Shown in pieces: positions 1 to 19,439 of a DNA stretch of 64,000 nt. Position 1 is the stretch's first letter, and the number at the start of each line of letters is the position of its first letter. Origin of the DNA: Nakamurella deserti (lineage in GTDB: Bacteria > Actinomycetota > Actinomycetes > Mycobacteriales > Nakamurellaceae). The notes beneath the pieces were generated by a model that worked only from the letters and a program-made list of their open reading frames with translations, was not told the origin of the DNA and did not search any database. The translations under genes and the position numbers were made by a program. The DNA is taken from contig NZ_QCXS01000002.1 in the NCBI RefSeq assembly GCF_003260015.1, positions 992,001 to 1,056,000 on the forward strand, written 5' to 3'.

Positions 1-62
1 GGGTGCTGTTGATGGGTATCGGGTCGGGGCTCAACGCCTCGATCTCCGAGATCGTCTGGTGA
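1..62 (+). CDS. oleA: OleA-type thiolase-fold condensing enzyme, 3' end only
   Basis: Only the last 19 codons are present, ending in TGA at 60-62. The peptide LLMGIGSGLNASISEIVW matches the C-terminal glycine-rich loop typical of KAS III-like thiolases such as OleA, which condenses two acyl-CoAs head to head. The assignment rests mainly on context: the next two genes are a fused OleB-OleC and an OleD, the remaining enzymes of the same pathway. The stop overlaps the GTG start of the next gene by four bases (GTGA), which suggests translational coupling. Most of the gene lies upstream of the window, so the catalytic Cys cannot be checked. Confidence 0.7.
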   Translation, partial: VLLMGIGSGLNASISEIVW

Positions 63-2614
63 CGGGCAGGCCCTTCCGCCCGCGTTCCCGTACCGCTCCG
101 GCCACGCTGCCGCCGGCCGGACTGCCCGGTCTGGACCCGTCGTGGTCGCGGCTCGTCGACGTCGTCGACGCGGACGGCATCACCCGGACGTTCCACGTCC
201 TGGACGCAGGTGACCCGGACGCCCCGGCCGGCACGCTGCTGTGCGTGCACGGCAACCCGACGTGGAGCTACCTGTGGCGCCGTCTCGTCGCCGATCCGCC
301 GCCCGGCTGGCGGGTGGTCGCGATGGACCATCTCGGCATGGGCTGGTCCGAGCGGCTGCCCCACGCCCGGACGCTGGCGCAGCGGGTCGACGACCTGGGC
401 CGCCTCACCGATGCCCTCGGCGTCACCGGGCCGGTGGTCACCGTCGCCCACGACTGGGGCGGCATCCTGTCCCTGGGCTGGGCCGAACGGCACCGTGACC
501 AGCTGCGCGGCGTCGTCCTGACCAACACCGCCGTGCACCAGCCCACGTCGTCGAAGGGGCCGATCCTCATCCGCCTCGCCCACCGGCGGCTGCTGAACGA
601 GCTCACCGTGCACCGGACGCCGCTGTTCGTGCGCACCACCACCGCACTGAGCCGCCCGAAGCTGCCGGCCGACGTCCGCGACGCCTTCTCCCGGCCCTAT
701 CCCGACACGGCCTCCCGGGCCGCGGTGTCGGAGTTCGTCGCCGACATCCCGTTCGCCGCCGGTCACCCGAGCCGGCCCGGCCTCGACCGGATCGCCGACG
801 CCGTCCCCACGTTGGACGTGCCGGCCCTGCTGCTGTGGGGCCCGAAGGATCCCGTGTTCCTCGAGGAGCACCTGCGGGACCTGCGGCGACGGCTGCCGCA
901 GGCCGACGTGCACCGCTACGAGCGGGCCGGCCACCTGCTGCCCGAGGACGCGCCCGGATACCCGGCGGTCGTACACGACTGGCTGTCCCAGCTCGGCTCC
1001 GCGCCGCCGGCGCGCCGGCCGGACCCGGCACTGCCGCCCACCCTGACCCAATTGCACCTGCGGCGCGACGACACCACGCCCGCCGTCGTCGGCACCGCCG
1101 GCGCCGCGATCAGCTGGGCCGACCTCCACCGCCGGGTCGAGGCCATCGCCGCCGGACTCGCCGCCGCCGGCGTCCGGCCGGGCCACCGGGTGGCGTTGCT
1201 GGTGCCGCCGTCCATCGACCTGACGGTGGCGCTGTACGCCGTCTGGCGAGCGGGTGCGGTCATCGTCGTCGCCGACAAGGGACTCGGACTGCGCGGGATG
1301 GGCCGGGCGCTGCGCAGCGCCCAGCTCGACCACGTCGTCGCCGACACCGCCGGACTGCTGGCGGCCGGTCCGATGCGGCTGCCCGGCAGCCGGATCGCCG
1401 TCCGGCCGCCGTCGCCGGTCGTCGCGCGGCTGTCCGGAGCGCGCACCTCGCTGGCCGAACTGGAACGCCGCGGTGCCGGCCTGCCGGCACCGGCGGAACC
1501 AGGTCCGGAAGCCGAGGCAGCGGTGCTGTTCACCTCCGGCGCGACCGGCCCGGCCAAGGGCGTCCGGTACCGGGACGGGCAGGTGCGGGCCCAGCTCGCG
1601 CTGATCCGCAGCACCTACCAGCTCACCCCGGACGACCGCATCGTCGCCGCCTTCGCCCCGTTCGCGCTGTACGGACCGGCGCTGGGCATCCCGAGCGCCG
1701 TGCCGGACACCGACGTCACCCAGCCCGGCACGCTCACCGCCGCCGCCCTGGCCGACGCGGCCGCGCGGATCGCCGGCACCGTCGTGTTCGCCTCACCGGC
1801 CGCGCTGCGCAACGTGCTGGCCACCGCCGGGGACCTCACCGACGCGCAGCGGACCGTGCTGTCCCGGGTCCGGCTCCTGATGAGCGCCGGCGCCCCGGTA
1901 CCGGCCGCGCTGCTGCAGAGCCTGCAGAAGGTGCTGCCCCGGGCCGACATGCACACGCCGTACGGGATGACCGAGGCGCTGCCGCTGACCGACGTCTCCC
2001 TCCCAGAGATCCTCGAGGCCGGCGACGGCGACGGGGTCTGCGTGGGCCGCCCGCTGGCCGGCGTGGAGCTGGCAGTCGTCCCGCCGGACCGGGCCGGGCA
2101 CGCCGACGGCGAGCTCACCGACGCGGTGGGCGCGACCGGTGAGATCTGGGCGCGGGCGCCGCACCTGCGCGACTCCTACGACGCGCTGTGGGTCACCGAC
2201 CGCGCCGCGGCCGCGCACCCCGGCTGGCACCGCACCGGTGACGTCGGGCACCGCGACGCCGCGGGACGGTGGTGGATCGAGGGCCGCACCGCCCACCTGG
2301 TGCTGACCGACCGGGGACCGGTGACCCCGGTCGGTGTCGAGCAACGCGTCCAACGGGCCCTCGGCGACGACACCACCGCGGCCGTCGTCGGGGTCGGTCC
2401 GGCCGGGGTCCAACAGGTCGTCGTGGTGCTGACGGGCACCGGTCCGGTGCTGCCCGACCTCGGCCTCGCCGACGCCGTCCGGGCGGCCGCCGCCCCGGTA
2501 CCGGTCGCCGCGGTGCTGGTGCGGGAGGCGCTGCCGGTGGACATCCGGCACAACTCCAAGATCGACCGGACCGCGCTGGCGGCGTGGGCGACGGACACGC
2601 TGGCCGGCCGGTGA
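59..2614 (+). CDS. oleBC: OleBC fusion: beta-lactone decarboxylase plus beta-lactone synthetase
   Basis: A protein of 851 residues with two complete domains. Residues about 30-310 form an alpha/beta hydrolase of the haloalkane-dehalogenase type: oxyanion motif HGNPTWS (64-70), nucleophile Asp132 in AHDWGG, and His292 in AGHLLPED. This is OleB, which removes CO2 from a beta-lactone to give a cis-olefin. Residues about 320-851 are an AMP-ligase-like OleC with the P-loop-like FTSGATGPAKG near residue 490, a GMTEALP motif, and a basic C-terminal subdomain; OleC converts the 2-alkyl-3-hydroxyacid to the beta-lactone. Such fusions are known in actinobacteria. The start is GTG at 59, overlapping the oleA stop. 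The pathway acts on long acyl chains, so the product may be a membrane-associated hydrocarbon or a beta-lactone. Confidence 0.88.
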   Translation: MTGRPFRPRSRTAPATLPPAGLPGLDPSWSRLVDVVDADGITRTFHVLDAGDPDAPAGTLLCVHGNPTWSYLWRRLVADPPPGWRVVAMDHLGMGWSERLPHARTLAQRVDDLGRLTDALGVTGPVVTVAHDWGGILSLGWAERHRDQLRGVVLTNTAVHQPTSSKGPILIRLAHRRLLNELTVHRTPLFVRTTTALSRPKLPADVRDAFSRPYPDTASRAAVSEFVADIPFAAGHPSRPGLDRIADAVPTLDVPALLLWGPKDPVFLEEHLRDLRRRLPQADVHRYERAGHLLPEDAPGYPAVVHDWLSQLGSAPPARRPDPALPPTLTQLHLRRDDTTPAVVGTAGAAISWADLHRRVEAIAAGLAAAGVRPGHRVALLVPPSIDLTVALYAVWRAGAVIVVADKGLGLRGMGRALRSAQLDHVVADTAGLLAAGPMRLPGSRIAVRPPSPVVARLSGARTSLAELERRGAGLPAPAEPGPEAEAAVLFTSGATGPAKGVRYRDGQVRAQLALIRSTYQLTPDDRIVAAFAPFALYGPALGIPSAVPDTDVTQPGTLTAAALADAAARIAGTVVFASPAALRNVLATAGDLTDAQRTVLSRVRLLMSAGAPVPAALLQSLQKVLPRADMHTPYGMTEALPLTDVSLPEILEAGDGDGVCVGRPLAGVELAVVPPDRAGHADGELTDAVGATGEIWARAPHLRDSYDALWVTDRAAAAHPGWHRTGDVGHRDAAGRWWIEGRTAHLVLTDRGPVTPVGVEQRVQRALGDDTTAAVVGVGPAGVQQVVVVLTGTGPVLPDLGLADAVRAAAAPVPVAAVLVREALPVDIRHNSKIDRTALAAWATDTLAGR

Positions 2615-3585
2615 GGATCCTGTTGACCGGAGCCACCGGCCTGATGGGCCGGCTGACCGCGGAGCGGCTGCTCGCCCGGGGTGACGACGTCACGGTCCTG
2701 CAACGCCGCCCGGCCGGTCTGGACACGCGCGAGATCCTCGGGGACGTCACCGATGCCCACCTGGTCGCCGAGGCCTGCCGGCGGCAGGACGTCGTCCTGC
2801 ACCTGGCCGCCAAGGTCGACGCCTTCGGCGCCTGGCCCGACTTCGAGCGGGTCAACGTCGGCGGTACCGCCGCGATCCTCGCCGGCTGCCGCTCGGCCGG
2901 CGTGCCCCGACTGGTCAACGTCTCCTCGCCGTCGGTGGCCCACGCCGGCGACGACCTGGTCGGTGTGGGGGCCTCACCCGCCGACCCGCACGCCGCCCGC
3001 AGCCACTACTCGCGGTCCAAGGCGATGGCGGAGCGCGCGGCCCTCGCGGCGAACGGTCCCGACCTCGCGGTGCTGTCGATCCGGCCGCACCTGGTGTGGG
3101 GCCCCGGGGACACCCAGCTGATCGCCCGCATCGTCGAGCGTGCCCGATCGGGGCGACTGCCGCTGATCGGCAACGGCGCCGCGCTCATCGACGCCACCTA
3201 CGTCGACAACGCCGCCGACGCGATGGTCGCCGCGGTCGACGCCGTCGGGCGGGTGCACGGTGAGGCCCTGGTCGTCTCCAACGGCGAGCCCCGACCGGTC
3301 GGCGAGGTGCTCCGCCGGATCTGCGCCGCCGCCGGCGTCCCGGGCCCACGTGGACGGGTGCCGGCCCGGCTGGCCACCGCCGCCGGGGCGGTCGTCGAGA
3401 AGCTGTGGAGGATCGACGGGTTCGCGTCCGAGCCGCCGCTGACCCGGTTCCTCGCCGAGCAGCTGAGCACCGCCCACTGGTTCGACCAGCGGCGCACCCG
3501 GGAGGCGCTGAACTGGACGCCCGCGGTCGGGATGGACGAAGGATTCCACCGGCTGGCCGCGTCCTACGCCGCCGCGGACGGGTGA
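2611..3585 (+). CDS. oleD: OleD-type 2-alkyl-3-ketoacid reductase (short-chain dehydrogenase)
   Basis: A 324-residue extended SDR. The N-terminus has the nucleotide-binding GATGLMG, and the catalytic Tyr-Lys pair is in YSRSK near residue 131, preceded by the expected Ser-rich strand (NVSSPSV). OleD reduces the 2-alkyl-3-keto acid made by OleA to the 3-hydroxy acid used by OleC. The start is the GTG at 2611, whose last two bases share the TGA of oleBC (4-base overlap); a longer reading frame upstream of it lies wholly inside oleBC and is ignored. Gene order A-BC-D with coupled overlaps indicates one transcript. By itself it could be read as a 3-beta-hydroxysteroid dehydrogenase/epimerase; the neighbourhood decides for OleD. 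Confidence 0.85.
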   Translation: MRILLTGATGLMGRLTAERLLARGDDVTVLQRRPAGLDTREILGDVTDAHLVAEACRRQDVVLHLAAKVDAFGAWPDFERVNVGGTAAILAGCRSAGVPRLVNVSSPSVAHAGDDLVGVGASPADPHAARSHYSRSKAMAERAALAANGPDLAVLSIRPHLVWGPGDTQLIARIVERARSGRLPLIGNGAALIDATYVDNAADAMVAAVDAVGRVHGEALVVSNGEPRPVGEVLRRICAAAGVPGPRGRVPARLATAAGAVVEKLWRIDGFASEPPLTRFLAEQLSTAHWFDQRRTREALNWTPAVGMDEGFHRLAASYAAADG

Positions 3586-3607
3586 CCGGCGTCATGTCCG
3601 CCCACCG

Positions 3608-3633
3608 GGAATGAACGTCGGGGTGCCGTGGTT
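3608..3633 (+). promoter_or_regulatory. Sigma-R-like promoter (GGAAT-N18-GTT)
   Basis: GGAAT at 3608-3612 and GTT at 3631-3633 are separated by exactly 18 bases, the published consensus of the thiol-stress sigma factor SigR of Streptomyces (SigH in mycobacteria). The first base before it is G, giving the fuller GGGAAT. Transcription would begin near 3640, just ahead of the hairpin-rich stretch at 3646-3730 and about 170 bases before the esterase gene. Match is by sequence only. Confidence 0.45.
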
Positions 3634-3645
3634 GGACCTCTCGAC

Positions 3646-3730
3646 GGACGCCTGGACATGCCCCGGGTACCAACTATTGAAAAGTCGCTGCGAGCGACCA
3701 CGCTGCCGAGAGGCGCACTGGCAGGCGTCC
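3646..3730 (+). ncRNA. Candidate structured RNA (leader or small RNA)
   Basis: A perfect 9-bp closing stem pairs GGACGCCTG (3646-3654) with CAGGCGTCC (3722-3730). Inside it lie GTCGC-TGCGA-GCGAC (3684-3698) and a weaker CTGCC/GGCAG pairing (about 3703-3725, mutually exclusive with part of the outer stem). Between the stems is an unusually A/T-rich run (AACTATTGAAAAG, 3672-3684) in a GC-rich genome. The element starts a few bases after the transcription start expected from the sigma-R-like promoter and is followed by GTCCCTTCTTCG, a pyrimidine-rich tail. No known riboswitch family was recognised. It may be a separate small RNA or the 5' leader of the esterase. Confidence 0.35.
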
Positions 3731-3807
3731 GTCCCTTCTTCGCCGCCGTCGTTCATCCCTGAGCGGAACCCCGCGGCGGTGTCGTGGATCCAGGCACCAT
3801 GGAGTGC

Positions 3808-4470
3808 ATGAGTTCACCCGCAGGCACCGTCCAGGTCGGCCGGATCGGCCGACCCGGCAGCACCGCGCCGACCCTGGTCGTGCTGCACGGCTACGGCGCC
3901 GACGAGCGCGACCTGATGGGCATGCTGCCGGTGCTGGGCATGATGCTGCCCGGCGTCGACGCCCGGGTGCTCGGCATCCGCGGGTTCTACGACGTCACCC
4001 ACCGCGGGCGCCCCGGGCGTTCGTGGTTCCCTGGACCCGTGGCCACCCCGCCACCGGACGACGAGATCGCCGCCGTCGGCGACCGCATCACCGCACTGGT
4101 CACCGAACACACCGACCGCGCCGTGTGGCTCGGCTTCTCGCAGGGCATGTGCGCGGCCATCACGGCGGTCCGCCGGCGCCCCGACGTGTGCAGCGGGTTG
4201 ATCGCCCTCAGCGGCTTCAGCTGGCCGAACCCCCAACCGGGAGACCCGACCATGGCCGCCGAGGTCCGCGCGGGCGGCGGCATCCCGGCGTTTTACGGCC
4301 GCGACCCCGCCGACCCGGCCATCCCCGGCTACGCGAGCGCGTGGGCGCTGGACTACCTGCGCGACCACACCCGGCTCACCGAACGCAGCTATCCCGGGAT
4401 CGGGCACAGCCTGTCGATGCCCGAGATCACCGACATCGTCGGCTTTCTGCGGCCGCTGCTGGCGCGCTGA
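3808..4470 (+). CDS. Alpha/beta hydrolase, phospholipase/carboxylesterase family
   Basis: About 220 residues. Family marks are the early LHGYGADERDLM oxyanion region, the nucleophile elbow GFSQGM, an acid near GRDPADPAIPG and the catalytic His in GIGHSLSMPE. This is the small esterase/lysophospholipase (acyl-protein-thioesterase-like) group; the substrate is unknown. In-frame starts exist at GTG 3784, ATG 3799 and ATG 3808; the family usually begins close to the last, but the ribosome site does not settle it. It may be transcribed from the sigma-R-like promoter at 3608. Its last 44 bases overlap the 3' end of the convergent hydrolase gene. Confidence 0.7.
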   Translation: MSSPAGTVQVGRIGRPGSTAPTLVVLHGYGADERDLMGMLPVLGMMLPGVDARVLGIRGFYDVTHRGRPGRSWFPGPVATPPPDDEIAAVGDRITALVTEHTDRAVWLGFSQGMCAAITAVRRRPDVCSGLIALSGFSWPNPQPGDPTMAAEVRAGGGIPAFYGRDPADPAIPGYASAWALDYLRDHTRLTERSYPGIGHSLSMPEITDIVGFLRPLLAR

Positions 4471-5185
4471 CCCGGCCTACCCGGGGTCGGTCGTCGCAGA
4501 GCGCGTCGAGCAGCGAGAGCAGCCGCGTCACCAGCACGATCGGCTGGGACAGCGCGAGAAGGTGCCCACCGGGCAGGATCTCGACGTCGACGTCGACGCG
4601 CTGGTGCGCCACCCGCTGCTGCAGCTCCGCCGGGAACAGCCGGTCGTCGCGGCCGGCCAGCACCAGGGTGGGCACCGTCGGGTGCGTGCGCGTCGGTTGC
4701 GGGGAGGTGAAGAGCGAGTCCGGAGGCATCCGGCCCTCGCCGGCGGCGAGGACCGCGACCACGTCGTCGGGCAGATCGTGGAAGAAGATCGCCTCCGGGC
4801 CGACGTCGGTGTCGGGGTCGCGTCCGTCGCGCACGGCCGCCGCGTGAGCGGCGTCGCTCTGACCGACCGCGTCCCACCACGCCCCGGCCGTCTCACCCGG
4901 CGCCGGGATCATGGCGTTGAGGTACACCAGCGCGTCGACCGGCATCCGGTCGCACACCGCCGGCGCCAGCTGGCCGCCCATCGACTGGGCGACGAGGACG
5001 ACCGGACGTGGTGCCGACACCGCCGCGGCCACGACGGCGTCCACCTGGTCGGTCAGGGTGACGCCGTCGTGGTTCGGCAGGTCGACCGCGACGACGACGT
5101 GCCCGGCCCCGGTCAGCGGCGGTACGACCCGGTACCAGTAGCCCGGGTCGCCGCCCGCTCCCGGGACCAGCACGAACGACGCCAC
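4427..5185 (-). CDS. Alpha/beta hydrolase (esterase/HNL-like)
   Basis: A 252-residue alpha/beta hydrolase of the short salicylate-binding-protein/hydroxynitrile-lyase-like type. It has FVLVPGAGGDPGYWYRV at the N-terminus, nucleophile Ser in AQSMGGQ near residue 90, an acid in AGRDDRLFP and the His in PGGHLLALSQP. The start is a GTG at 5185, nine bases after the stop of the dienelactone-hydrolase-like gene, so the two are probably co-transcribed. The C-terminal tail of about 28 residues (APAAAAESRRCR) runs past the folded domain into the convergent gene. No substrate can be read from sequence. Confidence 0.7.
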   Translation of the reverse strand: MASFVLVPGAGGDPGYWYRVVPPLTGAGHVVVAVDLPNHDGVTLTDQVDAVVAAAVSAPRPVVLVAQSMGGQLAPAVCDRMPVDALVYLNAMIPAPGETAGAWWDAVGQSDAAHAAAVRDGRDPDTDVGPEAIFFHDLPDDVVAVLAAGEGRMPPDSLFTSPQPTRTHPTVPTLVLAGRDDRLFPAELQQRVAHQRVDVDVEILPGGHLLALSQPIVLVTRLLSLLDALCDDRPRVGRVSAPAAAAESRRCR

Positions 5186-5194
5186 GGTCGGAGC

Positions 5195-5899
5195 TCAGCC
5201 CAGGGACGCGTGCAGGAAGTCGATCGTCCGCTGCCAGGCGACCGCCGCGAGCTCGGGATCGTAGGTGCCCATGTGGTTGTCCGGGTTCATGAACGCATGA
5301 CCGGCCGGGTAGTAGTGGATGTCGGTCGCCACCCCCGCCTCCCGTTGCAGCTGCTCGTCGAGCTTCATGGCGTCCTCGAGCGGATACATCTGGTCGGTCT
5401 GGCCGTAGTGGCCCTGGACCGGTGCGGTCAGCGACCGGTACGAGTCCGGCACGCCCGGACCGACCCCGTAGAACGGCACCGCGGCGCCGATCCGGTCGCC
5501 CTCCTGGGCGGCGAGCATCAGCACGAAACCACCGCCCATGCAGAAGCCGACCGCGCCGACCTTGTCCGAGGTCACCGCCTCGTGACCGAGCAGGAAGTCC
5601 ACGGCGCCGGACAGGTCGCGGGCCGCCTGCTCCACCGGCAGCTGGTTCATCAGCTCGCCGGCCGTGGACGCCTCGTGCGACACCCGGCCGCCGTACAGGT
5701 CCGGTGCCAACGCCACGAATCCCTCGGCGGCGAACCGGTCGACGTAGGCGGCGAGGCTGTCGTCGAGTCCCCACCACTCCTGGATGACGATCAGGCCCGG
5801 CCCGGAACCGCCGGGCGGCAGCGCCAGGTAACCGTGGGCCGTGCGCCCGCCGCTGTCGAAGGTGACGTTCTGTCGGGGCTGCTCGGTGGTGCTGGTCAC
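5195..5899 (-). CDS. Dienelactone hydrolase family protein
   Basis: A 234-residue protein matching carboxymethylenebutenolidase. The nucleophile is Cys in GFCMGG near residue 121, the hallmark of the family, with the catalytic His in AGHAFMNPDN and an Asp in GQTDQMYP. The conserved N-terminal EWWGLDDSL is present. Family members hydrolyse dienelactones in chlorocatechol breakdown, but many homologues are general esterases and no catechol genes are nearby, so the role is open. It sits 49 bases downstream of the light-receptor gene on the same strand and may be part of that transcript. Confidence 0.85.
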   Translation of the reverse strand: MTSTTEQPRQNVTFDSGGRTAHGYLALPPGGSGPGLIVIQEWWGLDDSLAAYVDRFAAEGFVALAPDLYGGRVSHEASTAGELMNQLPVEQAARDLSGAVDFLLGHEAVTSDKVGAVGFCMGGGFVLMLAAQEGDRIGAAVPFYGVGPGVPDSYRSLTAPVQGHYGQTDQMYPLEDAMKLDEQLQREAGVATDIHYYPAGHAFMNPDNHMGTYDPELAAVAWQRTIDFLHASLG

Positions 5900-5948
5900 G
5901 CGTCCTCCTGGGATGGGTACACCCGGCGGGGGTCGGCCGGGGGTCGGG

Positions 5949-7544
5949 TCAATCCTGCGCCGCGGCGGTGGCCGCGCCGACCAACGACGCGGCGTCGGAC
6001 CCGTCCTGCGGGAACCGGGCCCGCCCGATGCGCAGCGCGGAGTCGACGCGCAGGCCGGTGGGGAAGCCGCCGACCGTCTCGGGCCGGCTCATCGTGTCGC
6101 GGATCGCGGCCACCACGGCGTCGGTGTCGCCACCACCCAGCGGCAGCCGCAACAAAAACGACTGGTCGTCCTGCACCGACAGGCACGCGTCCGCCGGCAG
6201 GGTGGCGCGCAGCCGCTCGACGGCGGACCGCTGCACGGTGCGCGCGCCCGCGGCGTCGACGTCCCCGGTGATCACGCACAGCAGGTCGAAGCAGCGACCA
6301 CGGCTGGTCAGCACGGCGGCCTCGAGGTCGGCGGCGCCGGCCACCGCGTTCGGCAGGTCGGTGCCGGCGTCCCGGTAGGCGAGGCTGCGCAGCTGCTCCT
6401 CGCGCTCCACCCGTTCGCTGACGTCGCTCTGGTAGCCGATGTAGTGGGTGATCCGGCCGGCGTCGTCGCGCACCGCGGAGAGGTGCACCTCGTTCCAGAA
6501 CGCGGTGCCGTCCTTGCGGTAGTTGCGCAGCACACTGCGGACGTCACGACCGGTGTCCAGCGCCTGCCGCATCTCCTTCACGGCGCGCTGGTCGGAGTCC
6601 GGGCCCTGCAGGAAGCGGCAGTTGCGGCCGAGGATCTCGTCCGAGGAGTAACCGGTCAGCGTCGCGAAGGCGTCGTTGACGTAGACCAGCGGCTGCTCCG
6701 GGTCCAGCCAGTCGGCGATGGTGATGCTGACCGCGGCCACCGAGACCGCACGGACCATGGTCCGGGGCAGGTCGGCGCCGGAGATGCGGCGCCCGGCCGG
6801 CGTGGTCCCACCGGTCCGCGGTGTCGCGGTCGCCGGCCGGGGTGTCGCCACCGGCGCCGGCAGCGGCGGACGTGCCGTGCCGCCGGACTTCTTCAACCCG
6901 GCCAGGATCGCGGTGAGCCGTTCACGGGGCCGCGTCCCCGACAACTCGGGGTCGACGAGCCGCTCGACGAGGGTGGCGGCGACGTCGCGCAGCTTGATGT
7001 TGTTGTGCGAGGAGTGCCACCGCAGCAGGTCGAACGCCTGGGCCTCGGTGAGGTCGAAGATGACCATCATCATGCCCTTGGCCTGCTCGATCAGGTCCCG
7101 GGTCGCCGCGGCGTCGATGACCGCCCGAGTGGTCTCCTGTTCGCGGTGCCGCCGCAGACCCGCCGTCAGGTCGACGACGAATCCGCTGACCACCGACACG
7201 CCACCCGCGGCCCCGGCCGCGTAGCCGACGGCGAGCACGGTCCTGACCTTCCGCCGGGTGTCGACCAGCCGCAGCCACTCGCAGAAGGTGGCCCCGGTCT
7301 GCAGGGACCCGGCCACCGCCGCGTCCCAGCGCGGGCGGTCCTCGGGGTGCACGTGGCTCGACATCAGATCGAGTGTGGGCACCACCTCGCCCGGACCGAA
7401 GCCGTAGATGCCGTAGGTGCGATCGGTCCAGACCGTCCGGCGGGTGCGGACGTCGTGGGAGAACCGGCCGAACGGCGGCCCCGGCGGGGGACTGTGCGTC
7501 GCCGCGGCCTCGACGCCGGGCACCGTGCTCTTCGTGTCGGTCAC
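5949..7544 (-). CDS. PAS-ANTAR-LOV blue-light receptor with C-terminal degenerate GGDEF
   Basis: About 531 residues from the GTG at 7544 (an upstream ATG at 7595 would add 17). In order: a PAS domain (about 25-130), an ANTAR RNA-binding domain (about 135-198, with IEQAKGMMMV and DVAATLVERLVD), a Pro-rich linker (225-255), a LOV domain (about 260-378) with the canonical GRNCRFLQG whose Cys309 would form the flavin adduct, and about 150 more residues. The last part begins like a GGDEF domain (YRDAGTDLPN) and ends like one (RIGRARFPQDGSDAASLVGAA) but lacks the GG[DE]EF signature, so it should be inactive. PAS-ANTAR-LOV proteins (PAL) bind a small RNA hairpin in a light-dependent way in Nakamurella. 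The target RNA here is unknown. The chosen start has AGG eight bases upstream. Confidence 0.9.
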   Translation of the reverse strand: MTDTKSTVPGVEAAATHSPPPGPPFGRFSHDVRTRRTVWTDRTYGIYGFGPGEVVPTLDLMSSHVHPEDRPRWDAAVAGSLQTGATFCEWLRLVDTRRKVRTVLAVGYAAGAAGGVSVVSGFVVDLTAGLRRHREQETTRAVIDAAATRDLIEQAKGMMMVIFDLTEAQAFDLLRWHSSHNNIKLRDVAATLVERLVDPELSGTRPRERLTAILAGLKKSGGTARPPLPAPVATPRPATATPRTGGTTPAGRRISGADLPRTMVRAVSVAAVSITIADWLDPEQPLVYVNDAFATLTGYSSDEILGRNCRFLQGPDSDQRAVKEMRQALDTGRDVRSVLRNYRKDGTAFWNEVHLSAVRDDAGRITHYIGYQSDVSERVEREEQLRSLAYRDAGTDLPNAVAGAADLEAAVLTSRGRCFDLLCVITGDVDAAGARTVQRSAVERLRATLPADACLSVQDDQSFLLRLPLGGGDTDAVVAAIRDTMSRPETVGGFPTGLRVDSALRIGRARFPQDGSDAASLVGAATAAAQD

Positions 7545-7634
7545 CCGACGAACCTCATCCGTACTCCTGCTGCCGCACCTGCTGCCCTGGCCCATCGTCT
7601 TGAGCGGTTTCGATCGTATCCGCCGCGGGCGCGG

Positions 7635-8153
7635 TCAGGACCGGACCGCGACCGCCCGCAGGGCCTTGCCCAGGTGGACCGAGTTGGGCTCCGCCGCGTA
7701 GTGGCCGAAGGCGGGCACCGGGACGTAGCCGCCGGCGCCGTAGAGGCCGATGGCCTCCGGCTGCATCAGGCCCGTCTCCAGGACGAGCCAGCCGGCACCG
7801 GCCGCGGCGGCGGTCGCCTCGAGGTGGGCCAGCACGGCCCGGGCGTAGCCGCGACCCCGCCGGTCCGGCACGACGTACATCCGCTTGAGTTCGGCCACCG
7901 GCGCGGGCGGCCCGGGGACGGGTGGCGCCTCGGCGCCGAGCATCCGCCAACCCCCCATCGCCGCCGCGACGCCGTCGGGGGCGAACAACACGAAGAACCG
8001 GCCGAGCGGCGGGCTGAACTCCCCGTGATCCACCGGGGTCTCGTCGGGACCGCCGTAGCGGACGACGTACTCCTGCTGGACCTCGGCGATCAGCCGTTGG
8101 GCGTCGGCGTGGTGGTAGGGGACGGGGCGGATGTCGAACGTCGGCACCCGCAC
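7635..8153 (-). CDS. GNAT family N-acetyltransferase
   Basis: A 172-residue single-domain GNAT. The acetyl-CoA pyrophosphate-binding motif A is clear as VPDRRGRGYARAVL near residues 97-110, preceded by the beta4 strand ELKRMYV and followed by the motif B helix region ETGLMQPEAIGLYGAGGY. The substrate cannot be inferred. It is transcribed away from the thioredoxin gene, with an 80-base divergent gap containing a sigma-R-like promoter directed toward thioredoxin; 90 bases separate it from the light-receptor gene downstream on the same strand. Confidence 0.8.
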   Translation of the reverse strand: MRVPTFDIRPVPYHHADAQRLIAEVQQEYVVRYGGPDETPVDHGEFSPPLGRFFVLFAPDGVAAAMGGWRMLGAEAPPVPGPPAPVAELKRMYVVPDRRGRGYARAVLAHLEATAAAAGAGWLVLETGLMQPEAIGLYGAGGYVPVPAFGHYAAEPNSVHLGKALRAVAVRS

Positions 8154-8175
8154 ATTGTCCCTGCCGCCGGCGCCG

Positions 8176-8201
8176 GGAATACCGCTCCGGATGCGGCCGT
8201 T
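8176..8201 (+). promoter_or_regulatory. Sigma-R-like promoter of thioredoxin gene
   Basis: GGAAT (8176-8180), 18 bases, then GTT (8199-8201): an exact match to the SigR consensus, 33 bases before the thioredoxin ATG. Thioredoxin genes are classic SigR targets in actinobacteria. A perfect inverted repeat, CGGATGC-N7-GCATCCG (8188-8208), overlaps the -10 end and the start of transcription and could be an operator. Confidence 0.6.
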
Positions 8202-8233
8202 GCATCCGTGAGCCCCACGAGAGGACGTTCTTC

Positions 8234-8617
8234 ATGGCCACCACTGAACTGACCGGCGACATCTTCGAGAGCACCGTGACCGGCAACGGCATCGTGCTCG
8301 TCGACTTCTGGGCGTCCTGGTGCGGCCCGTGCCGCGCCTTCGCGCCGACCTACGACGCGGCGTCGGAGAAGCACCCCGACATTGTCTTCGGCAAGGTCGA
8401 CACCGAGGCCGAGCAGGGTCTCGCCGCCGCCGCCAACATCCGCTCGATCCCGACGCTGATGGCGTTCCGGGACGGCATCCTGGTGTTCTCGCAGCCCGGG
8501 GCGCTCCCGGCGAAGGGCCTCGAGCAGGTCATCGAGGGCGTCCGCGGGCTGGACATGGACGACGTCCGTGCGCAGGTCGCCAAGGCCCACGAGGCCCAGG
8601 CCGGCGCCCAGGTCTGA
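8234..8617 (+). CDS. trxA: Thioredoxin
   Basis: A 127-residue thioredoxin with the active site WCGPC (Cys30, Cys33), the FWASWCGPC context, and the cis-Pro loop IRSIPTL near residue 76. It reduces protein disulfides and works with thioredoxin reductase (not in this window). It is slightly longer than the usual 105-110 residues, with a C-terminal Ala/Gln-rich tail (KAHEAQAGAQ). A GAGAGGA ribosome site lies about eight bases before the ATG. The upstream sigma-R-like promoter predicts induction by thiol oxidation. Transcription appears to end at the strong hairpins at 8631-8719. Confidence 0.93.
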   Translation: MATTELTGDIFESTVTGNGIVLVDFWASWCGPCRAFAPTYDAASEKHPDIVFGKVDTEAEQGLAAAANIRSIPTLMAFRDGILVFSQPGALPAKGLEQVIEGVRGLDMDDVRAQVAKAHEAQAGAQV

Positions 8618-8630
8618 TCGACCGCCCACC

Positions 8631-8671
8631 GCACGAAGGCTCCACCCGGACACCGGGTGGAGCCTTCGTGC
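8631..8671. terminator. Perfect 19-bp stem hairpin between trxA and lon
   Basis: Arms 8631-8649 and 8653-8671 are fully complementary with a 3-base loop (ACA). It lies 14 bases after the thioredoxin stop, in a convergent gap, so it can stop transcription from both sides. There is no U-tract, as is common in actinobacteria. Confidence 0.85.
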
Positions 8672-8684
8672 ATGTCGGGGCCGG

Positions 8685-8719
8685 GTGTCCCGGGACCGCT
8701 CGGAGCGGTCCCGGGACAC
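8685..8719. terminator. Second hairpin, next to the lon stop codon
   Basis: GTGTCCCGGGACCGCT (8685-8700) pairs with its complement at 8704-8719 around a 3-base loop. It sits two bases from the end of lon and, with the 8631-8671 hairpin, forms a tandem bidirectional terminator. Confidence 0.75.
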
Positions 8720-8721
8720 GG

Positions 8722-11094
8722 TCAGGCAGCCGCCCGCGCCGCGGCCGGGTCGGCCGCCTCCAGGGCGTGATCGAGGATCTCCCGGATGTCGCCGACCGGC
8801 CGGACGTCGAGCAGGGCGAGGATCTCCGCCGGCACGTCGTCCAGGTCGGGCTCGTTGCGCAGTGGGATGAACACCGTCCGCACCCCGGCCCGCTGGGCGG
8901 CCAGCAGCTTCTGCTTGACGCCGCCGATGGGGAGCACCCGCCCGCTGAGCGTCACCTCACCGGTCATCGCCACGTCCGAACGCACCGGGCGGCCGGTGGC
9001 CATCGAGGTGAGCGCCGTGATCATCGTGACCCCGGCGGACGGGCCGTCCTTGGGCACCGCACCGGCCGGTACGTGCAGATGCACGCCCCGCCGCAGCACC
9101 GCGGGGTCGATGCCGAGGTCGGCGGCGTGGGACCGGACGTAGGACAACGCGATGCGCGCCGACTCCTTCATCACGTCACCGAGCTGCCCGGTCAGCGTCA
9201 GCTCGCCGGTGCCGCCCTCGGTCGGGATCGAGCCGGCCTCGATGAACAGCACGTCACCGCCGAGTCCGGTGACGGCCAGGCCGGTGGCCACGCCCGGGGT
9301 GGAGGTGCGCTCGGCGGTCTCCGGGGTGAACCGGGGACGGCCGACCAGCCCGCGCAGATCCGCGGCGTCCACCGTGAGCGCACCGGTCCCGTCGTCCAGC
9401 CGGGTCGCCGCCTTGCGCAGCACCTTGGCCAGCAGCCGCTCGAGCTGCCGAACCCCGGCCTCGTGGGTGTGGGAGGTGACGAGCTCCCGCAGGGCGGCGT
9501 CGGTGACCGTCACCTCCGCGGGGTCGATCGCCGCCCGCTCCAGCTGCCGGGGCAGCAGGTGCGTGCGGGCGATGGCCACCTTGTCGTCCTCGGTGTAGCC
9601 GTCCAGCTGGATGAGCTCCATCCGGTCCAGCAGCGGGCCGGGGATGGTGTCGAGCACGTTGGCGGTGGCCAGGAAGACCACGTCGGACAGGTCCAGGTCG
9701 ACGTCGAGGTAGTGGTCGCGGAACGTGTGGTTCTGCGCCGGGTCGAGCACCTCCAACAATGCGGACGACGGATCACCCCGGTACCCGTGCCCATCAGACC
9801 CGACCTTGTCGATCTCGTCCAGCAGGACGACCGGGTTCATCGAGCCCGCCTCGGCGATGGCCCGCACGATCCGGCCGGGCAGCGCGCCGACGTAGGTGCG
9901 CCGGTGCCCGCGGATCTCGGCCTCGTCGCGGACGCCACCGAGGGCGACCCGGACGAACGTGCGGCCCAGGGCGGTGGCCACACTCTCGCCGAGCGAGGTC
10001 TTGCCGACCCCGGGCGGGCCGACGAGGGCCAGGACCGCGCCCGAGCCGCGGCCGCCGACGACCTGCAGCCCGCGGCGGTTGCGCCGCTCGCGGACCGCCA
10101 GGTACTCCACGATGCGGTCCTTGACGTCGGTGAGGCCGTGGTGGTCGGCATCGAGAACCGCTCGCGCGGCGGCGATGTCGTGGTTGTCCTCGGTGCGGAC
10201 CGACCAGGGCAGGTCGAGCACGGTGTCCAGCCAGGTGCGCAGCCAACCGGCCTCGGGAGACTGGTCGCCGGCGCGTTCCAGCTTCCCGACCTCGCGCAGG
10301 GCGGCCGTCCGGACGGACTCCGGCAGGTCGGCCGCTTGCACCCGGGCGCGGTAGTCGCCCTCCTCGCCCGCGGTGCCGTCGAGATCACCCAGCTCCTTGC
10401 GGATGGCCGCCAGTTGGGACTTGAGCAGGAATTCGCGCTGGCTCTTCTCCATGCCCTCGCGGACGTCGTCGCGGATCTTCTCGCTCACCTCGATCTCGGC
10501 GAGGTGCGCCCGGGTCCAGGCAGTCACGCGCTCCAGACGCGTGGTGAGATCGGTGGTCTCCAGCAGTTCCCGCTTCTGTTCGTCGGTCAGGTACGACGCC
10601 CAACCGGCGGCGTCGGCCAGTGCGGACGGGTCGGTCATGCGTTCGACGGTGTTGATGACCTGCCAGGCGTCGCGGTGCTGCAGGACGCCGATGACCAGCG
10701 CCTTGTACTCGACGGCGAGTTCGCGGTCGTGGTCGGTCGGGGTGGCGTCCGGCTGCGGCTGCGCCTCGACCCACAGGGCCGCACCCGGGCCGCTGACGCC
10801 GGTGCCGATCCGTGCGCGCACACCGGCACGCACGACCGCGGCCGAGGCGCCCGACGGGGTGCGACCGACCTTCTCCACGGTGGCGATCACCCCGTGGCTG
10901 GCGTAGCGGTCGGCCAGCCGCGGCACGATCAGCAGGGTGCCCTCGACGGACTCCTGGCCGTCGGGGGTGCGGACGGAGCGGGCGGCGTCGATCGCCGCGC
11001 GGGCGGCGTCGTCGAGTTCGAGGGGGACGACCATGCCCGGCAGCAGGACGGTGTCGGACAGGCTCAGGACGGGAAGTTCACGGGACGGTGACAT
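8722..11094 (-). CDS. lon: ATP-dependent protease Lon (LonA)
   Basis: A 790-residue LonA-type AAA+ protease in the cytoplasm. Domains: N-terminal LON substrate domain (about 1-190), helical linker, AAA+ ATPase with Walker A GPPGVGKT (about 357) and Walker B VVLLDEIDK (about 420), and the Ser-Lys protease with catalytic Ser in PKDGPSAGV (about 683) and Lys in GGVKQK (about 726). The ATG at 11094 is preferred over an upstream in-frame one at 11127 because GAGGAG lies four bases before it. A HAIR-type inverted repeat 18 bases upstream predicts control by the heat-shock repressor HspR, as reported for lon in Streptomyces. Confidence 0.95.
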   Translation of the reverse strand: MSPSRELPVLSLSDTVLLPGMVVPLELDDAARAAIDAARSVRTPDGQESVEGTLLIVPRLADRYASHGVIATVEKVGRTPSGASAAVVRAGVRARIGTGVSGPGAALWVEAQPQPDATPTDHDRELAVEYKALVIGVLQHRDAWQVINTVERMTDPSALADAAGWASYLTDEQKRELLETTDLTTRLERVTAWTRAHLAEIEVSEKIRDDVREGMEKSQREFLLKSQLAAIRKELGDLDGTAGEEGDYRARVQAADLPESVRTAALREVGKLERAGDQSPEAGWLRTWLDTVLDLPWSVRTEDNHDIAAARAVLDADHHGLTDVKDRIVEYLAVRERRNRRGLQVVGGRGSGAVLALVGPPGVGKTSLGESVATALGRTFVRVALGGVRDEAEIRGHRRTYVGALPGRIVRAIAEAGSMNPVVLLDEIDKVGSDGHGYRGDPSSALLEVLDPAQNHTFRDHYLDVDLDLSDVVFLATANVLDTIPGPLLDRMELIQLDGYTEDDKVAIARTHLLPRQLERAAIDPAEVTVTDAALRELVTSHTHEAGVRQLERLLAKVLRKAATRLDDGTGALTVDAADLRGLVGRPRFTPETAERTSTPGVATGLAVTGLGGDVLFIEAGSIPTEGGTGELTLTGQLGDVMKESARIALSYVRSHAADLGIDPAVLRRGVHLHVPAGAVPKDGPSAGVTMITALTSMATGRPVRSDVAMTGEVTLSGRVLPIGGVKQKLLAAQRAGVRTVFIPLRNEPDLDDVPAEILALLDVRPVGDIREILDHALEAADPAAARAAA

Positions 11095-11111
11095 CAGGCT
11101 CCTCAGGACTG

Positions 11112-11132
11112 GTTGAGTCTGATCCACTCAAG
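11112..11132 (-). promoter_or_regulatory. HAIR operator (HspR-binding type) upstream of lon
   Basis: GTTGAGT-CTGATCC-ACTCAAG matches the HspR inverted repeat CTTGAGT-N7-ACTCAAG with one change, in the outermost base of one arm. It lies 18-38 bases before the lon ATG, where it would overlap the promoter or early leader. HspR itself is not in the window. Confidence 0.75.
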
Positions 11133-11316
11133 TCTCGGCGGACCGGTGTTGTTCCCGTCGGATGCCGGCCTTCGCCGTCGGCGAACGCCGGCCGCTGCCC
11201 GGGGCCCCGGGCGGGTACCGGAGTCCCCAGGATGCCGGGGCGGCCTGGCGCCCACACCGGCCCGGTGTCGTTCCGGCACCGGCCCGCACCGACCGACTCG
11301 ACGACACGGGGTACGC

Positions 11317-13551
11317 ATGCGACGACGTCCGATCGCCCGGTCCGCGGTGCTGGTCACCGCGCTGGTCGTGAGCCTGGCGCAGGGGCCGGGCCCGTCGTCG
11401 GCGGCCCCGGCGCCGCGGGTCGCCGCGGCGGCGGCGGCACAGCCGGTCGCGCAGGCGGTCGCCCAGGCCGAGGCGAACGCCGCCGCCAACGGGGTGTCCA
11501 CGGCGATCAGCGTGGTCGACCGGGCCACCGGGGCGGTGCTGGCCGAGACCGGCAACGCCGGGTCGCAGGTCGCCTCGGAGTCGATCGTGAAACTGATGAT
11601 CGCCGCCTACCACCTGGTGGCCAACGGCGGTTGGGCGTCCACGCCCGCCGCCCTGCAGGACCGGCTGAGCTACATGCTGCGGGTGTCGGACGACTCGACC
11701 GCGACGAACCTCTTCCGCGGGGACATCGTGCCGAGCGTCGCGGCGCGGTACGGGATGGGCTCGACGACCAACGCCACCGACCGCGTCGGTCACTGGGGAG
11801 CCGTCCGGATCACCGCCCACGACATGACGACCTTCCTCTGGCGGGCGTCGCAGGACCCCGCGGTCGGTCCGTGGCTGCTGCCGGTGATGGCCCAGAGCGC
11901 CCCCCGCGGCTCGGACGGATTCGACCAGGCGTTCGGACTGAACGCGCTGTCCGGTGACCACGGTTCCAAGCAGGGCTGGGGTGGCGACAGTTTCTTCACC
12001 CGCTTTCCCTACGCCGTCCACTCGGTCGGCTACACCGACCGGTACTTCGTCGCCATCCTGCAGACGGCACCCACCTACCCGGACCCGATGCGGGCGACGG
12101 CGACCACCGCCGCGCAGCTCATCCAGGCGTCGACGGCGGTGCCGCCGGTGCGCGACGGCGACTTCGTCGTCAACGGCGACGACGGCACGCTGTACCGGGT
12201 GGCCGGCGGCGCACCGGTGTACGTCTCCGAGTTCGCCGCCGTCCCGGGATCGGCGGCGTACCGGGTGCTCTCCGGGACGGAGTTCGCCGCGCTGGCCCAG
12301 GTGCCGCGCGACGGCACGCTGCTGGAAGCGGGCGGGCAGGTCTTCATCGTGGCGGGCGGTGCGCCGCTGTACGTCTCGGACTACGGCCGGGTGGGCGGGT
12401 ACCGGCCCGGCACGGTGGTGGACCCGGCCGCGGTGCGGCGCGCCGGGGAGGGCGGCCGGTGGAGCCACCTCACCGCGGTGCCGGCCGATGGGACCCTGCT
12501 GCAGAACGGATCCGAGATCTTCGTCGTGGCCGGCGGTGCCCCCCTGTACGTCAGCGACTACGCACCGATCGGCGGATACCGCCCCGCCGTCCCGGTGGAC
12601 CCGGCCGCGCTCAACGCCGCCGGTCAGCCCGCCCCGTGGGACCACCTGCGCTTCTACCCGTCCGACGGCACGTTGCTGCAGGCCGGGCCCGACGGTTCCC
12701 CGGTGTACCTGGTGGCCGGCGGCGCTCCGACCTACGTCACCTCCTACGACGCGATCGGCGGCCCGCGGCCCGCGACCCGGGTGGATCCGGCGGCCCTGGC
12801 CAACGGAGGCCAGGGCGGGCGCTGGGCGCACCTGCGGTTCACCCCGCCGGACGGCACGTTGCTGCAGGCCGGCCCCGACGGGTCGGCGGTCTACCTGGTG
12901 GCCGGCGGCGCTCCGACCTACCTGAGCAGCTACGACGCGATCGGCGGACCGCGGCCGGCCGCCCGGGTCGACCCGGTGCAGATCGCCTACGCGGGCACCG
13001 GCGGGTGGTTCGGTCACCTGTCGTTCCGGCCGGCCGACGGCACCCTGGTGCAGGCCGGGGGCGACATCCACGTCGTGGCCGGAGGCGCTCCGGTCTACCT
13101 GTCCGACTACGCGGCCATCGGCGGCTACCGGCCGGCCTCGGTGATCGATCCCGCCGCCGTGCGCACGGCCGGCGGCCCGGCGGAGTGGAGCCATCTCACC
13201 GACGTGCCGTCCGACGGCACCCTGCTGCAGGCCGGATCCGACGTGTTCGTCGCCGCCGGCGGCGCACCGGTGTACCTGGCCGATTTCGCCGACATCGGCG
13301 GCTACCGCCCCCCGGTGCGCATCGACCCGGCCGCGGTGGCGGCTGCGGGCACCGACGACCGGTACCGGCACGTCCGCCAGGTCCCCGCGGACGGCACCGC
13401 GCTGCTCGGCAGCCCGGGCGGGCGGCGTTACGTCGTCACGGACGGCACTCCACGCCCCGCCGAGGCGGGCCCCGGGGTGACGGTCAGCCAGGCGGCGGTC
13501 GACCGGGCCGGCGAGCCCGGCGTGTGGTCGCACCTGCGGGCCACCGCCTGA
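11317..13551 (+). CDS. Secreted beta-lactamase-fold protein with eight tandem surface repeats
   Basis: A 744-residue protein with an N-terminal signal peptide (basic start, hydrophobic core, Ala-rich end near residue 32). Residues about 45-270 resemble a class A beta-lactamase/penicillin-recognising fold: SIVK at 89-92 as the SxxK, SDDS as the SxN-like element, and SKQGWG as a KTG-like element. Residues 280-744 hold eight repeats of about 53-62 residues with the core DGTLLQAG...VVAGGAPVYLSDYAAIGGYRP...VDPAAV..AG..WSHL; the first and last are divergent. Such DGTL/VAGGAP repeats occur in exported actinobacterial proteins and may bind the wall. Whether the enzyme domain is active is uncertain because the third motif is atypical. 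It is transcribed divergently from lon. Confidence 0.7.
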   Translation: MRRRPIARSAVLVTALVVSLAQGPGPSSAAPAPRVAAAAAAQPVAQAVAQAEANAAANGVSTAISVVDRATGAVLAETGNAGSQVASESIVKLMIAAYHLVANGGWASTPAALQDRLSYMLRVSDDSTATNLFRGDIVPSVAARYGMGSTTNATDRVGHWGAVRITAHDMTTFLWRASQDPAVGPWLLPVMAQSAPRGSDGFDQAFGLNALSGDHGSKQGWGGDSFFTRFPYAVHSVGYTDRYFVAILQTAPTYPDPMRATATTAAQLIQASTAVPPVRDGDFVVNGDDGTLYRVAGGAPVYVSEFAAVPGSAAYRVLSGTEFAALAQVPRDGTLLEAGGQVFIVAGGAPLYVSDYGRVGGYRPGTVVDPAAVRRAGEGGRWSHLTAVPADGTLLQNGSEIFVVAGGAPLYVSDYAPIGGYRPAVPVDPAALNAAGQPAPWDHLRFYPSDGTLLQAGPDGSPVYLVAGGAPTYVTSYDAIGGPRPATRVDPAALANGGQGGRWAHLRFTPPDGTLLQAGPDGSAVYLVAGGAPTYLSSYDAIGGPRPAARVDPVQIAYAGTGGWFGHLSFRPADGTLVQAGGDIHVVAGGAPVYLSDYAAIGGYRPASVIDPAAVRTAGGPAEWSHLTDVPSDGTLLQAGSDVFVAAGGAPVYLADFADIGGYRPPVRIDPAAVAAAGTDDRYRHVRQVPADGTALLGSPGGRRYVVTDGTPRPAEAGPGVTVSQAAVDRAGEPGVWSHLRATA

Positions 13552-13634
13552 TCCGTCCGGCCGCCCGGCCCCCGTCATCGACCACGGTCGCCGACGCGCG
13601 GTTCCGGAGACGGTGGCGGTGGGGGTGCGCCGAC

Positions 13635-13666
13635 GGCACCGGCGTCGCCGTCGACGCGCCGGTGCC
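13635..13666. terminator. Hairpin in the convergent gap 13552-13844
   Basis: GGCACCGGCG (13635-13644) pairs with CGCCGGTGCC (13657-13666) around a 12-base loop. It lies between the convergent repeat-protein and oxidoreductase genes. The rest of this 293-base gap shows no gene. Confidence 0.45.
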
Positions 13667-13844
13667 GGCCGGCCCCGCGGTCGAGGGGAACGGACAGTGG
13701 CAGTCCGTGATCCGGCACCGGGCGTCGCACCGGGCCGGTCGCGGTGCGGTGCGGGCTCCGGTCGTCCGCCCCCGACCCGTCGTCAGGACCGCCACCGGGG
13801 GAGGTGCGGCACGTTCGTCGACGGGGCGCCGAGCGCGGGAGGCG

Positions 13845-14867
13845 TCAGGGCAGGACGAGGAGCCGCCCGTCCACCGGACCGTCCTCGATGCGGCGGTGCG
13901 CCTCCGCCGCCGCGGCCAAGGGGTAGCGGCCGGCGATCCGGGTGGTCAGACTGCCCTCGACGACCATCCGGTTGATGAGTTGCGCACCCGCGGCGAGCTG
14001 CGCCGAGGTCGCCCGGCTGAGCACGAAGCCCTGCACGGTGATGTCCCGGGTGTACAGCGGCGCCCAGCTCATCTCCGGTGACGCCACCCGGGCCGCGGTC
14101 ACCAGCACCCGGCCGCCGGTCGCCGTCGCCGCCGCGGCCACCCGGAAGTCGTTGCCGCCGGCGGTGTCCCACCAGACCTGGACACCCCCCGGGGCGGCCC
14201 CGGAGACCTGTGCGGCCAGGTCGGGGGCGCGGTCGTCCACCACCGCGTCGGCGCCCGCCGCGCGGCAGCGCGGTGCGTTCGCCGGCCGGCAGCCGGCCAC
14301 CACCCGCACACCGGCCCGCCGGGCCAGCTGGATCGCCGCGGTGCCGACGTTGCCCGCCGCACCCCCGACGTACACCGTCCACTCCTTGCGCACTGCCGCG
14401 TGCACGAACCAGGCGAGGTAGGCGGTGATCGCCGGATGCGCCACCGCGACCAGGGTCTCGCGGTCGGCTCCGGCAGGGACGGCGTAGAGGCGGTCCTCGG
14501 CCACCACGGCCAGGTCGGTGAACGATCCCTGCCGGCCCTGGTGCCCGAGGCTGTTCGCCCACACGGCGTCACCCGGCCGGAACGAGCGCACCGCGGACCC
14601 GGTAGCGACGACGGTGCCGACCAGATCGCGACCCAGGATGAACGGGAACGGGATCGGGGTGTCGTACCGGCCGCTGCGCACATAGCCGTCGACCGGGTTG
14701 ACCGTCGCCGCCTCGACCGCCACCAGCACCTCGTCCGGTCCGAGCCCGGGGACCGGGAGGGCGGTGAGGCGGATCGTGTCGGCCGGGCCGACGCGGTCGA
14801 CGACCGCGGCGCGGCGGGACACCGGGGTCGGGGACGGAACCGGGGCCGGGGTCCGGAGCGGGGGCAT
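13845..14867 (-). CDS. NADPH:quinone reductase-like MDR-family oxidoreductase
   Basis: A 340-residue medium-chain dehydrogenase/reductase of the zinc-free quinone oxidoreductase group. It has the GroES-like N-terminal domain (ILGRDLVGTVVATG) and the Rossmann motif VYVGGAAGNVGTAAIQLARRAG. Structural-zinc Cys residues typical of alcohol dehydrogenases are absent. It probably reduces quinones or enones with NADPH in the cytoplasm; the substrate is unknown. The ATG at 14867 gives a Pro-rich N-terminal extension of about 15 residues; a GTG at 14822 would remove it and is an alternative start. It stands alone, divergent from the secreted propeller protein. Confidence 0.8.
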   Translation of the reverse strand: MPPLRTPAPVPSPTPVSRRAAVVDRVGPADTIRLTALPVPGLGPDEVLVAVEAATVNPVDGYVRSGRYDTPIPFPFILGRDLVGTVVATGSAVRSFRPGDAVWANSLGHQGRQGSFTDLAVVAEDRLYAVPAGADRETLVAVAHPAITAYLAWFVHAAVRKEWTVYVGGAAGNVGTAAIQLARRAGVRVVAGCRPANAPRCRAAGADAVVDDRAPDLAAQVSGAAPGGVQVWWDTAGGNDFRVAAAATATGGRVLVTAARVASPEMSWAPLYTRDITVQGFVLSRATSAQLAAGAQLINRMVVEGSLTTRIAGRYPLAAAAEAHRRIEDGPVDGRLLVLP

Positions 14868-15155
14868 CGCGACATCGTGTCACCGCGCCGCCGCGACCGG
14901 CAGGGACCCAGGTCGGTTGCCGGGCCGCACGCACCGATGCCGGCCCGCGCCGTCGTTCTCCTGCGGACCTCGCGACAGCCGTGGGATGATCCGTCGGCGC
15001 GAAGTGCCGCGTCCGCCGCGGCCGGTGCGGTCGGCTCGGTCCCGGGCGGACCGCCGTCAGGTGCCGGGTGGACGGCGGTGGCGGGGGCGGAACAGCCCCC
15101 CGCCGCGATGTTCCGTCCGCCGGCGTCGCCGCCGCCGAACCCCTGGGATGTGCTG

Positions 15156-17615: not shown

Positions 17616-17617
17616 CG

Positions 17618-17681
17618 GGTCGGCCGCACCCCGGGCCCGCTGCCCCCTGGCAGGCGGGTATCCCGGGGGGCCGCGCCGACC
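17618..17681. terminator. Large nested hairpin between convergent genes
   Basis: GGTCGGC (from 17618) pairs with GCCGACC (17675-17681), and inside it CCCGC-TGCC / GGCA-G-GCGGG forms a second stem with a 4-base loop. It starts three bases after the stop of the propeller protein and faces the 3' end of dasR. Confidence 0.7.
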
Positions 17682-17745
17682 ACCCTCCCGCGGGGTGTCG
17701 CCCCCGGTGGTGGCGGGGAGGTCGGCCGGGTCCGGCCCGTGGTGC

Positions 17746-18540: not shown

Positions 18541-18575
18541 CGTGGCAGCCCTCCGTCAGCCGGCGGTCGACCGGT

Positions 18576-18591
18576 ATTGGTCTGGACCATT
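18576..18591. promoter_or_regulatory. dre-type operator upstream of dasR
   Basis: ATTGGTCTGGACCATT, an inverted repeat with one arm mismatch, matches the DasR-responsive element (core TGGTCTAGACCA). It lies 36-51 bases before the dasR start and predicts autoregulation. Bases 18541-18690 otherwise hold no gene. Confidence 0.75.
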
Positions 18592-18690
18592 ACACCGTGC
18601 CGCCGGGGTGCGGCGGAGGACCGCACACCCGGTGTGAGGGAGACCACACCGACCGAGCGCGAGCGCGCCGTCCCGGGGCCACCGGTGTCG

Positions 18691-19434: not shown

Positions 19435-19439
19435 CGCGG

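Follow-up and report, generated by a model that had tools for sequence, protein, structure and literature searches.

The best-matching described photoreceptor, NmPAL of Nakamurella multipartita (PDB entry 6hmj), is a homodimer whose Jα helices are believed to pass the effect of light on to the ANTAR domain by noncovalent contacts (available portion of PMC12797116). Its LOV module blocks ANTAR in the dark, and light raises the affinity for RNA at least 100-fold, as given in the accessible text of PMC9614035. The excerpts available of PMC9098866 and PMC10966536 describe its arrangement, in which the sensor follows the effector, as unusual or unique; the accessible part of the latter also states that full light control requires an unmodified C terminus and that the natural RNA is unknown. 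The LOV-activated diguanylate cyclases (LadC) fall into linker classes of 21 or 35 residues, counted from the LOV Asp to the Leu of DxLT, and the short-linker members AoLadC and DpLadC combine LOV, a 21-residue linker to DxLT, and a GGDEF fold (PMC10396304, excerpted text). FimX has a degenerate GGDEF domain that is reported to sense GTP, depends on the motif GDSIF to respond to GTP, and carries an EAL domain (PMC8846402, available part). A literature search, thin in subscription papers, returned none that describes a PAL carrying such a GGDEF domain at its end.

A PAL gene is found at 5949..7544 on the minus strand of the window, by which we mean the whole 64,000-nucleotide stretch of Nakamurella deserti DNA that was analyzed. 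It encodes 531 aa, with a GTG start at 7544 and the stop at 5949-5951, and has an alternative ATG at 7595. Inspection by eye of 7545-7595, between the two possible starts, reveals a tiny frame (ATG AGG TTC GTC GGG TGA), with a stop that shares bases with the GTG, and a GAGG 5′ of the GTG that could act as a ribosome site. The best PDB match of the protein (window PAL) is 6hmj (E = 1.8e-77, residues 19-390), with which it shares the order PAS, ANTAR, LOV in one chain, the LOV cysteine, the ANTAR motif, and the genus. The core is 42% identical to that of NmPAL and 42 to 49% identical to the cores of all four other PALs found here.

The N-terminal PAS domain (7155..7490, minus strand) covers residues ~19-130, with approximate bounds taken from alignment with 6hmj and the four other PALs, and the NCBIfam FixL model matches residues 26-146. 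The ANTAR RNA-binding domain follows (6966..7112, minus strand; residues 145-193; Pfam PF03861, E = 4.8e-17), and a 75-aa query from this part matches 6hmj at E = 1.5e-14. The LOV domain (6408..6713, minus strand; residues 278-379) is recognized by Pfam PAS_9 and PAS_3 (PAS_9 at 280-377, E = 1.6e-21). By homology, the adduct-forming cysteine would be C309 in GRNCRFLQG (6618..6620, minus strand). GRNCRFLQ and N290, C309, Q313, N341, N351, and Q372, which we take to be the flavin-binding residues of LOV, are invariant in all five PALs, and the parts that relay light in NmPAL are conserved in window PAL in the same five-PAL alignment. Membership in the PAL class and an intact LOV cysteine, both proposed in an initial annotation made from the sequence, are borne out by these residues, by the Pfam matches to ANTAR and LOV, by the match to 6hmj, and by a single clade with NmPAL (below). 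By analogy with NmPAL, the product would be a PAL-type protein that binds RNA under the control of blue light, its photochemistry and RNA binding being assigned by homology.

The two proteins differ at the C terminus. The NmPAL frame (365 aa) stops 17 residues into the LOV-GGDEF linker, leaving LOV at the very C terminus, whereas window PAL continues for ~140 residues after LOV as a degenerate GGDEF domain (5952..6371, minus strand; residues 392-531). Its linker, counted from the Asp in the LOV motif D(I/V)(T/S) through to the place where DxLT has its Leu, spans residues 374-394 (6363..6425, minus strand). Third-position G+C, at 0.94 for the core and 0.96 for the tail, is what coding sequence would show, and it stays at 0.94-0.96 across the tails and cores of the three PALs that carry a tail (window PAL, L009, and L002), in all of which the reading frame and codon pattern of the tail are intact. 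This codon pattern indicates tails that are still coding, which falls short of proof that they matter.

The identification of this tail as a GGDEF domain without its signature, absent from NmPAL, proved correct, with mixed results from the individual profile searches. A direct Pfam scan beyond about residue 390 gave no family at E ≤ 10, HMMER filters dropping most weak matches, whereas a profile of 14 GGDEF sequences scored the tail at 13.7 bits in hmmsearch (270 of 300 shuffled tails also scored, at best 4.7 bits), and hhalign of the tail as a single sequence against GGDEF gave 88% (E = 3.1e-6). The tail of L009 matches the window tail at E = 6e-9 in a single comparison and Pfam GGDEF at E = 1.6e-8. 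The L002 tail did not match the window tail directly (E = 0.76), and Pfam GGDEF matches its first half alone, weakly (E = 0.041). With the domain start through DxxTxLPN removed, 9.8 bits remained for the window tail and 7.8 bits for the L002 tail, a score as high being reached in each case by 1 of 500 shuffles. A single-sequence AlphaFold2 model of the window tail, which is free of alignment bias, was moderately confident (pLDDT 63.6), and its best PDB matches were diguanylate cyclases (TM ~0.4-0.5 to the top matches). The predicted fold, a check set beforehand, is that of GGDEF and not an unrelated one. Profile matches and model, with which the 21-residue linker known from short-linker LOV cyclases agrees, together confirm the tail as a degenerate GGDEF domain by descent and, as predicted, by fold.

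The former active site has been largely lost. In alignment with intact GGDEF domains, the signature of the window tail reads DDQSF (6156..6170, minus strand; residues 459-463) in place of GGDEF, the FKxxNDxxGH stretch is missing in window PAL and L009, with traces kept in L002, and no RxxD I-site was seen 5′ of the signature position in the window tail. Among 33 positions invariant in 14 intact GGDEF domains, window PAL keeps 12, L009 13, and L002 14; three stand-alone Nakamurella LOV-GGDEF proteins keep 18-19. Decay is not graded among the PAL tails: the front half of the L002 tail is better kept than the window tail (21.6 versus 13.7 bits with the GGDEF profile), and the end of the L002 domain is gone. 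The window tail lacks the combination of GG(D/E)EF and guanine- and metal-site residues found in active diguanylate cyclases. In GGDEF enzymes, loss of such residues rules out cyclase activity. Because the signature, the FKxxNDxxGH stretch, and the I-site are lost, we regard cyclase activity as excluded and canonical binding of GTP or c-di-GMP as unlikely, so that neither catalysis nor canonical nucleotide sensing is a likely function of the tail as its residues now read.

These losses also bear on the proposal in the initial annotation that the tail could sense a nucleotide. A working sensor, binding GTP or another nucleotide and passing a second signal to LOV-ANTAR, would resemble FimX, whose GGDEF domain likewise has no cyclase signature; the fold of the window tail is predicted as kept, degenerate GGDEF domains can sense GTP, and GGDEF domains abound in the window genome (G000), where 29 matches were counted. 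However, FimX keeps GDSIF, a milder change than DDQSF, and the window tail, with DD in place of GG and with the few invariant positions counted above, does not retain a pocket of the FimX type, part of which is missing. The L009 tail, with 13 of 33 positions, lacks the same stretch. With the guanine-site stretch, the GG loop, and the RxxD I-site gone, we consider a FimX-like sensor very unlikely, a noncanonical ligand remaining conceivable.

A profile built from the five PALs was searched in 397 genomes of the order, with five candidates scored per genome. The five PAL proteins scored 595-645 bits and occur in 4 of the 17 Nakamurella genomes; the next best match reached 213.5 bits and covered the LOV part. 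PALs are likely absent elsewhere in this order sample, at five candidates per genome. Searches of class and phylum samples (394 and 396 genomes, overlapping each other and the order sample), again with five candidates scored per genome, gave matches at E ≤ 1e-70 in G000 alone. For the best 80 of 584 relatives, which come from named genomes, none of them Nakamurella, an open frame holding C(R/K)FLQ is present at 74 of the 80 loci, and an ANTAR-like QA(K/R)G was seen in none of those frames; with Nakamurella outside this set, the result carries no information on the distribution of PALs. G000 itself carries two PALs, window PAL and L002 (1426-2880), whose 485 aa end in a GGDEF tail that is cut short, and locus L011 in G002, a genome of the same genus, looks like the NmPAL gene itself. 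No neighbor common to the five PAL genes was seen by eye in the output of a crude gene caller. The tail is not universal among PALs, which was the second check set beforehand: three of the five carry it, and NmPAL and L010 do not. No clear GGDEF remnant was seen by eye 3′ of the NmPAL stop, in the three forward frames after L011 and L010; an alignment of window PAL with G002 crosses two stop codons, reaches residue 398 of window PAL, and is too short beyond the core to reveal one.

The LOV-to-DxLT linker is exactly 21 residues long in all three tailed PALs. Window PAL shares this length with the short-linker LadC proteins and differs from them in having PAS-ANTAR before LOV and in its lost GGDEF site, so that by sequence it is not an active cyclase. 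L010 continues for 21 residues past the same LOV Asp and has no DxLT. When LOV-GGDEF-like rows were measured by pattern, 35 of 43 distinct rows read 21; L025, L027, and L030 read 31, the pattern having caught an earlier DIT, and are 21 by eye, while L105, L114, and L122 read 35, L085 reads 26, and L120 reads 64. The eight readings other than 21 are in part pattern errors and in part true long linkers, and 21 residues is the commonest linker length, not the sole one. A tree of GGDEF domains unites the PAL tails with the LOV-GGDEF domains of Nakamurella (95/95), with long PAL branches whose joins may be false. The 21-residue register, together with this grouping, suggests that LOV and tail were inherited together.

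Near relatives of the window PAL's LOV and tail are the stand-alone Nakamurella LOV-GGDEF proteins (L012, L016, and L043) and two from Geodermatophilaceae (L046 and L047). They have no PAS-ANTAR, and their GGDEF domains are far better kept (80-87 bits for L012, L016, and L043 versus 13.7 bits for window PAL); L046 and L047 have, by eye, an EAL-like part in front of LOV-GGDEF. L012, L016, and L043 carry the changed signatures DADNF, DADTF, and DAETF in GGDEF domains that are otherwise well kept, and may be light receptors whose GGDEF domain has changed its function. Two further proteins of the genus were noted. L017 (G014:C1:2266524-2267159) is a 212-aa LOV-ANTAR protein with LOV first and ANTAR second (E = 2.7e-15), which is the PAL order reversed, and it is a second, separate joining of LOV to the RNA-binding ANTAR in Nakamurella. 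A full-length match to it is present in G014 alone among the 17 Nakamurella genomes, and as a query in G000 it found no further LOV protein at E ≤ 1e-25. L020 (G002:C1:2304730-2305377) is a PAS-ANTAR protein with a C-terminal extension that is STAS-like by eye.

The direction of change was examined in trees of both protein parts. In the LOV tree (34 rows; L034, lacking the motif used for cutting, was dropped), the five PALs form one clade with support of 98/94, from which window PAL, L009, and L002 branch in turn, followed by NmPAL with L010 (92/86, 100/99, and 100/91). In the PAS-ANTAR tree (9 rows with a separate outgroup; L018 dropped on the same ground), the PALs again form one clade (94/96), window PAL branches first and L009 next (95/92), and L002, NmPAL, and L010 fall together (99/97), with no resolved order among them. 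Topology tests on both parts reject a grouping of the three tailed PALs as one clade, which a single late gain would call for (p-AU of 0.02 for LOV and 0.003 for PAS-ANTAR). Window PAL and L009 as sisters are not rejected (p-AU of 0.256 and 0.053, respectively), and the FKxxNDxxGH stretch missing in both fits sisters better than a ladder, so we are unsure of the first step, in which window PAL would branch before L009.

Under either topology, a tailed ancestor with one loss requires fewer events than late gain and is favored. The alternative, in which a PAS-ANTAR-LOV receptor acquired the tail at a later stage and with it a further means of regulation, draws on the fact that NmPAL, the one PAL studied in the literature consulted, works without a tail and on the general frequency of C-terminal domain gain. 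However, it has to contend with the rejected clade of tailed PALs and with a tail that sits at the LOV-GGDEF register of 21 residues and groups with Nakamurella LOV-GGDEF domains (with the warning about long branches), and we regard it as unlikely. Because both protein parts reject that clade, the tailed state seems to be the ancestral one and the tail-less state derived, the sample of five PALs leaving some room in principle for several independent gains. A C-terminal LOV domain is accordingly judged, from these trees, a derived feature of NmPAL and not one that defines PALs. The initial annotation's view of an extra domain that adds a second input runs against this polarity and is not supported.

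The simplest account of these data would be a joint entry of LOV and GGDEF into PAL. We therefore favor, at a probability of roughly 0.7, a reading in which PAL arose when PAS-ANTAR was joined in front of a short-linker LOV-diguanylate cyclase, whose effector died and was later lost in some lineages, leaving a dead cap in window PAL. A PAS-ANTAR unit would have been fused 5′ of the cyclase, and LOV would then have come to control ANTAR on its N-terminal side. The old C-terminal GGDEF effector would have lost its active site and product-inhibition site and, in window PAL, part of its nucleotide pocket as well. In L002 the end of the domain is cut short, and the line leading to NmPAL and L010 would have lost the domain altogether, with the LOV-GGDEF linker left as the end of NmPAL.

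As reported for NmPAL, LOV would hold ANTAR in the dark, and a Cys309-flavin adduct formed in the light would free ANTAR for an RNA hairpin. The core of Nm60, a hairpin bound by NmPAL, gave 12 matches in six Nakamurella genomes (0 in G000 and 4 in G002) versus 9 for a reversed-pattern control and so gives no information on the RNA target, and an Rfam scan of window positions 1-20000 gave no match. Window PAL is likely a homodimer in which Jα, instead of ending, would continue into the stretch that leads to the dead GGDEF domain. That domain would most likely persist as a folded structure that caps the coiled coil of the LOV Jα helices, without nucleotide binding, and by fixing the dimer and the coiled-coil register it may set the balance between dark and light states.

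Another possibility is that the tail is a decaying relic without effect on light control. The L002 tail is shortened, NmPAL and L010 have none, and the tails diverge faster than the rest (window PAL and L009 are 49% identical in the core and 32% in the tail). Shortening or loss in relatives argues that the tail may be dispensable. Nevertheless, all three tails keep an intact frame and codon pattern despite the lost active site, and single-sequence prediction still yields a GGDEF fold. Light control by NmPAL is, moreover, reportedly sensitive to C-terminal changes (available text of PMC10966536), and a domain of 140 residues would hardly be neutral. We hold a relic without effect to be possible, yet doubtful, and prefer the reading of a dead but folded cap.

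More broadly, and here we put the chances at about even, PALs may descend from LOV-diguanylate cyclases in which the output of LOV switched from its C-terminal to its N-terminal side, with the dead lever still tuning the light switch. NmPAL would then be a truncated derivative, and its "inverted" layout would come from that history. NmPAL serves as a light switch for RNA, and window PAL and its two relatives offer a history for a layout in which the sensor stands behind the effector. PALs with a whole C-terminal domain run against the stated rule that the NmPAL C terminus be unmodified, and together the PALs form a natural series of full tail, shortened tail, and no tail.
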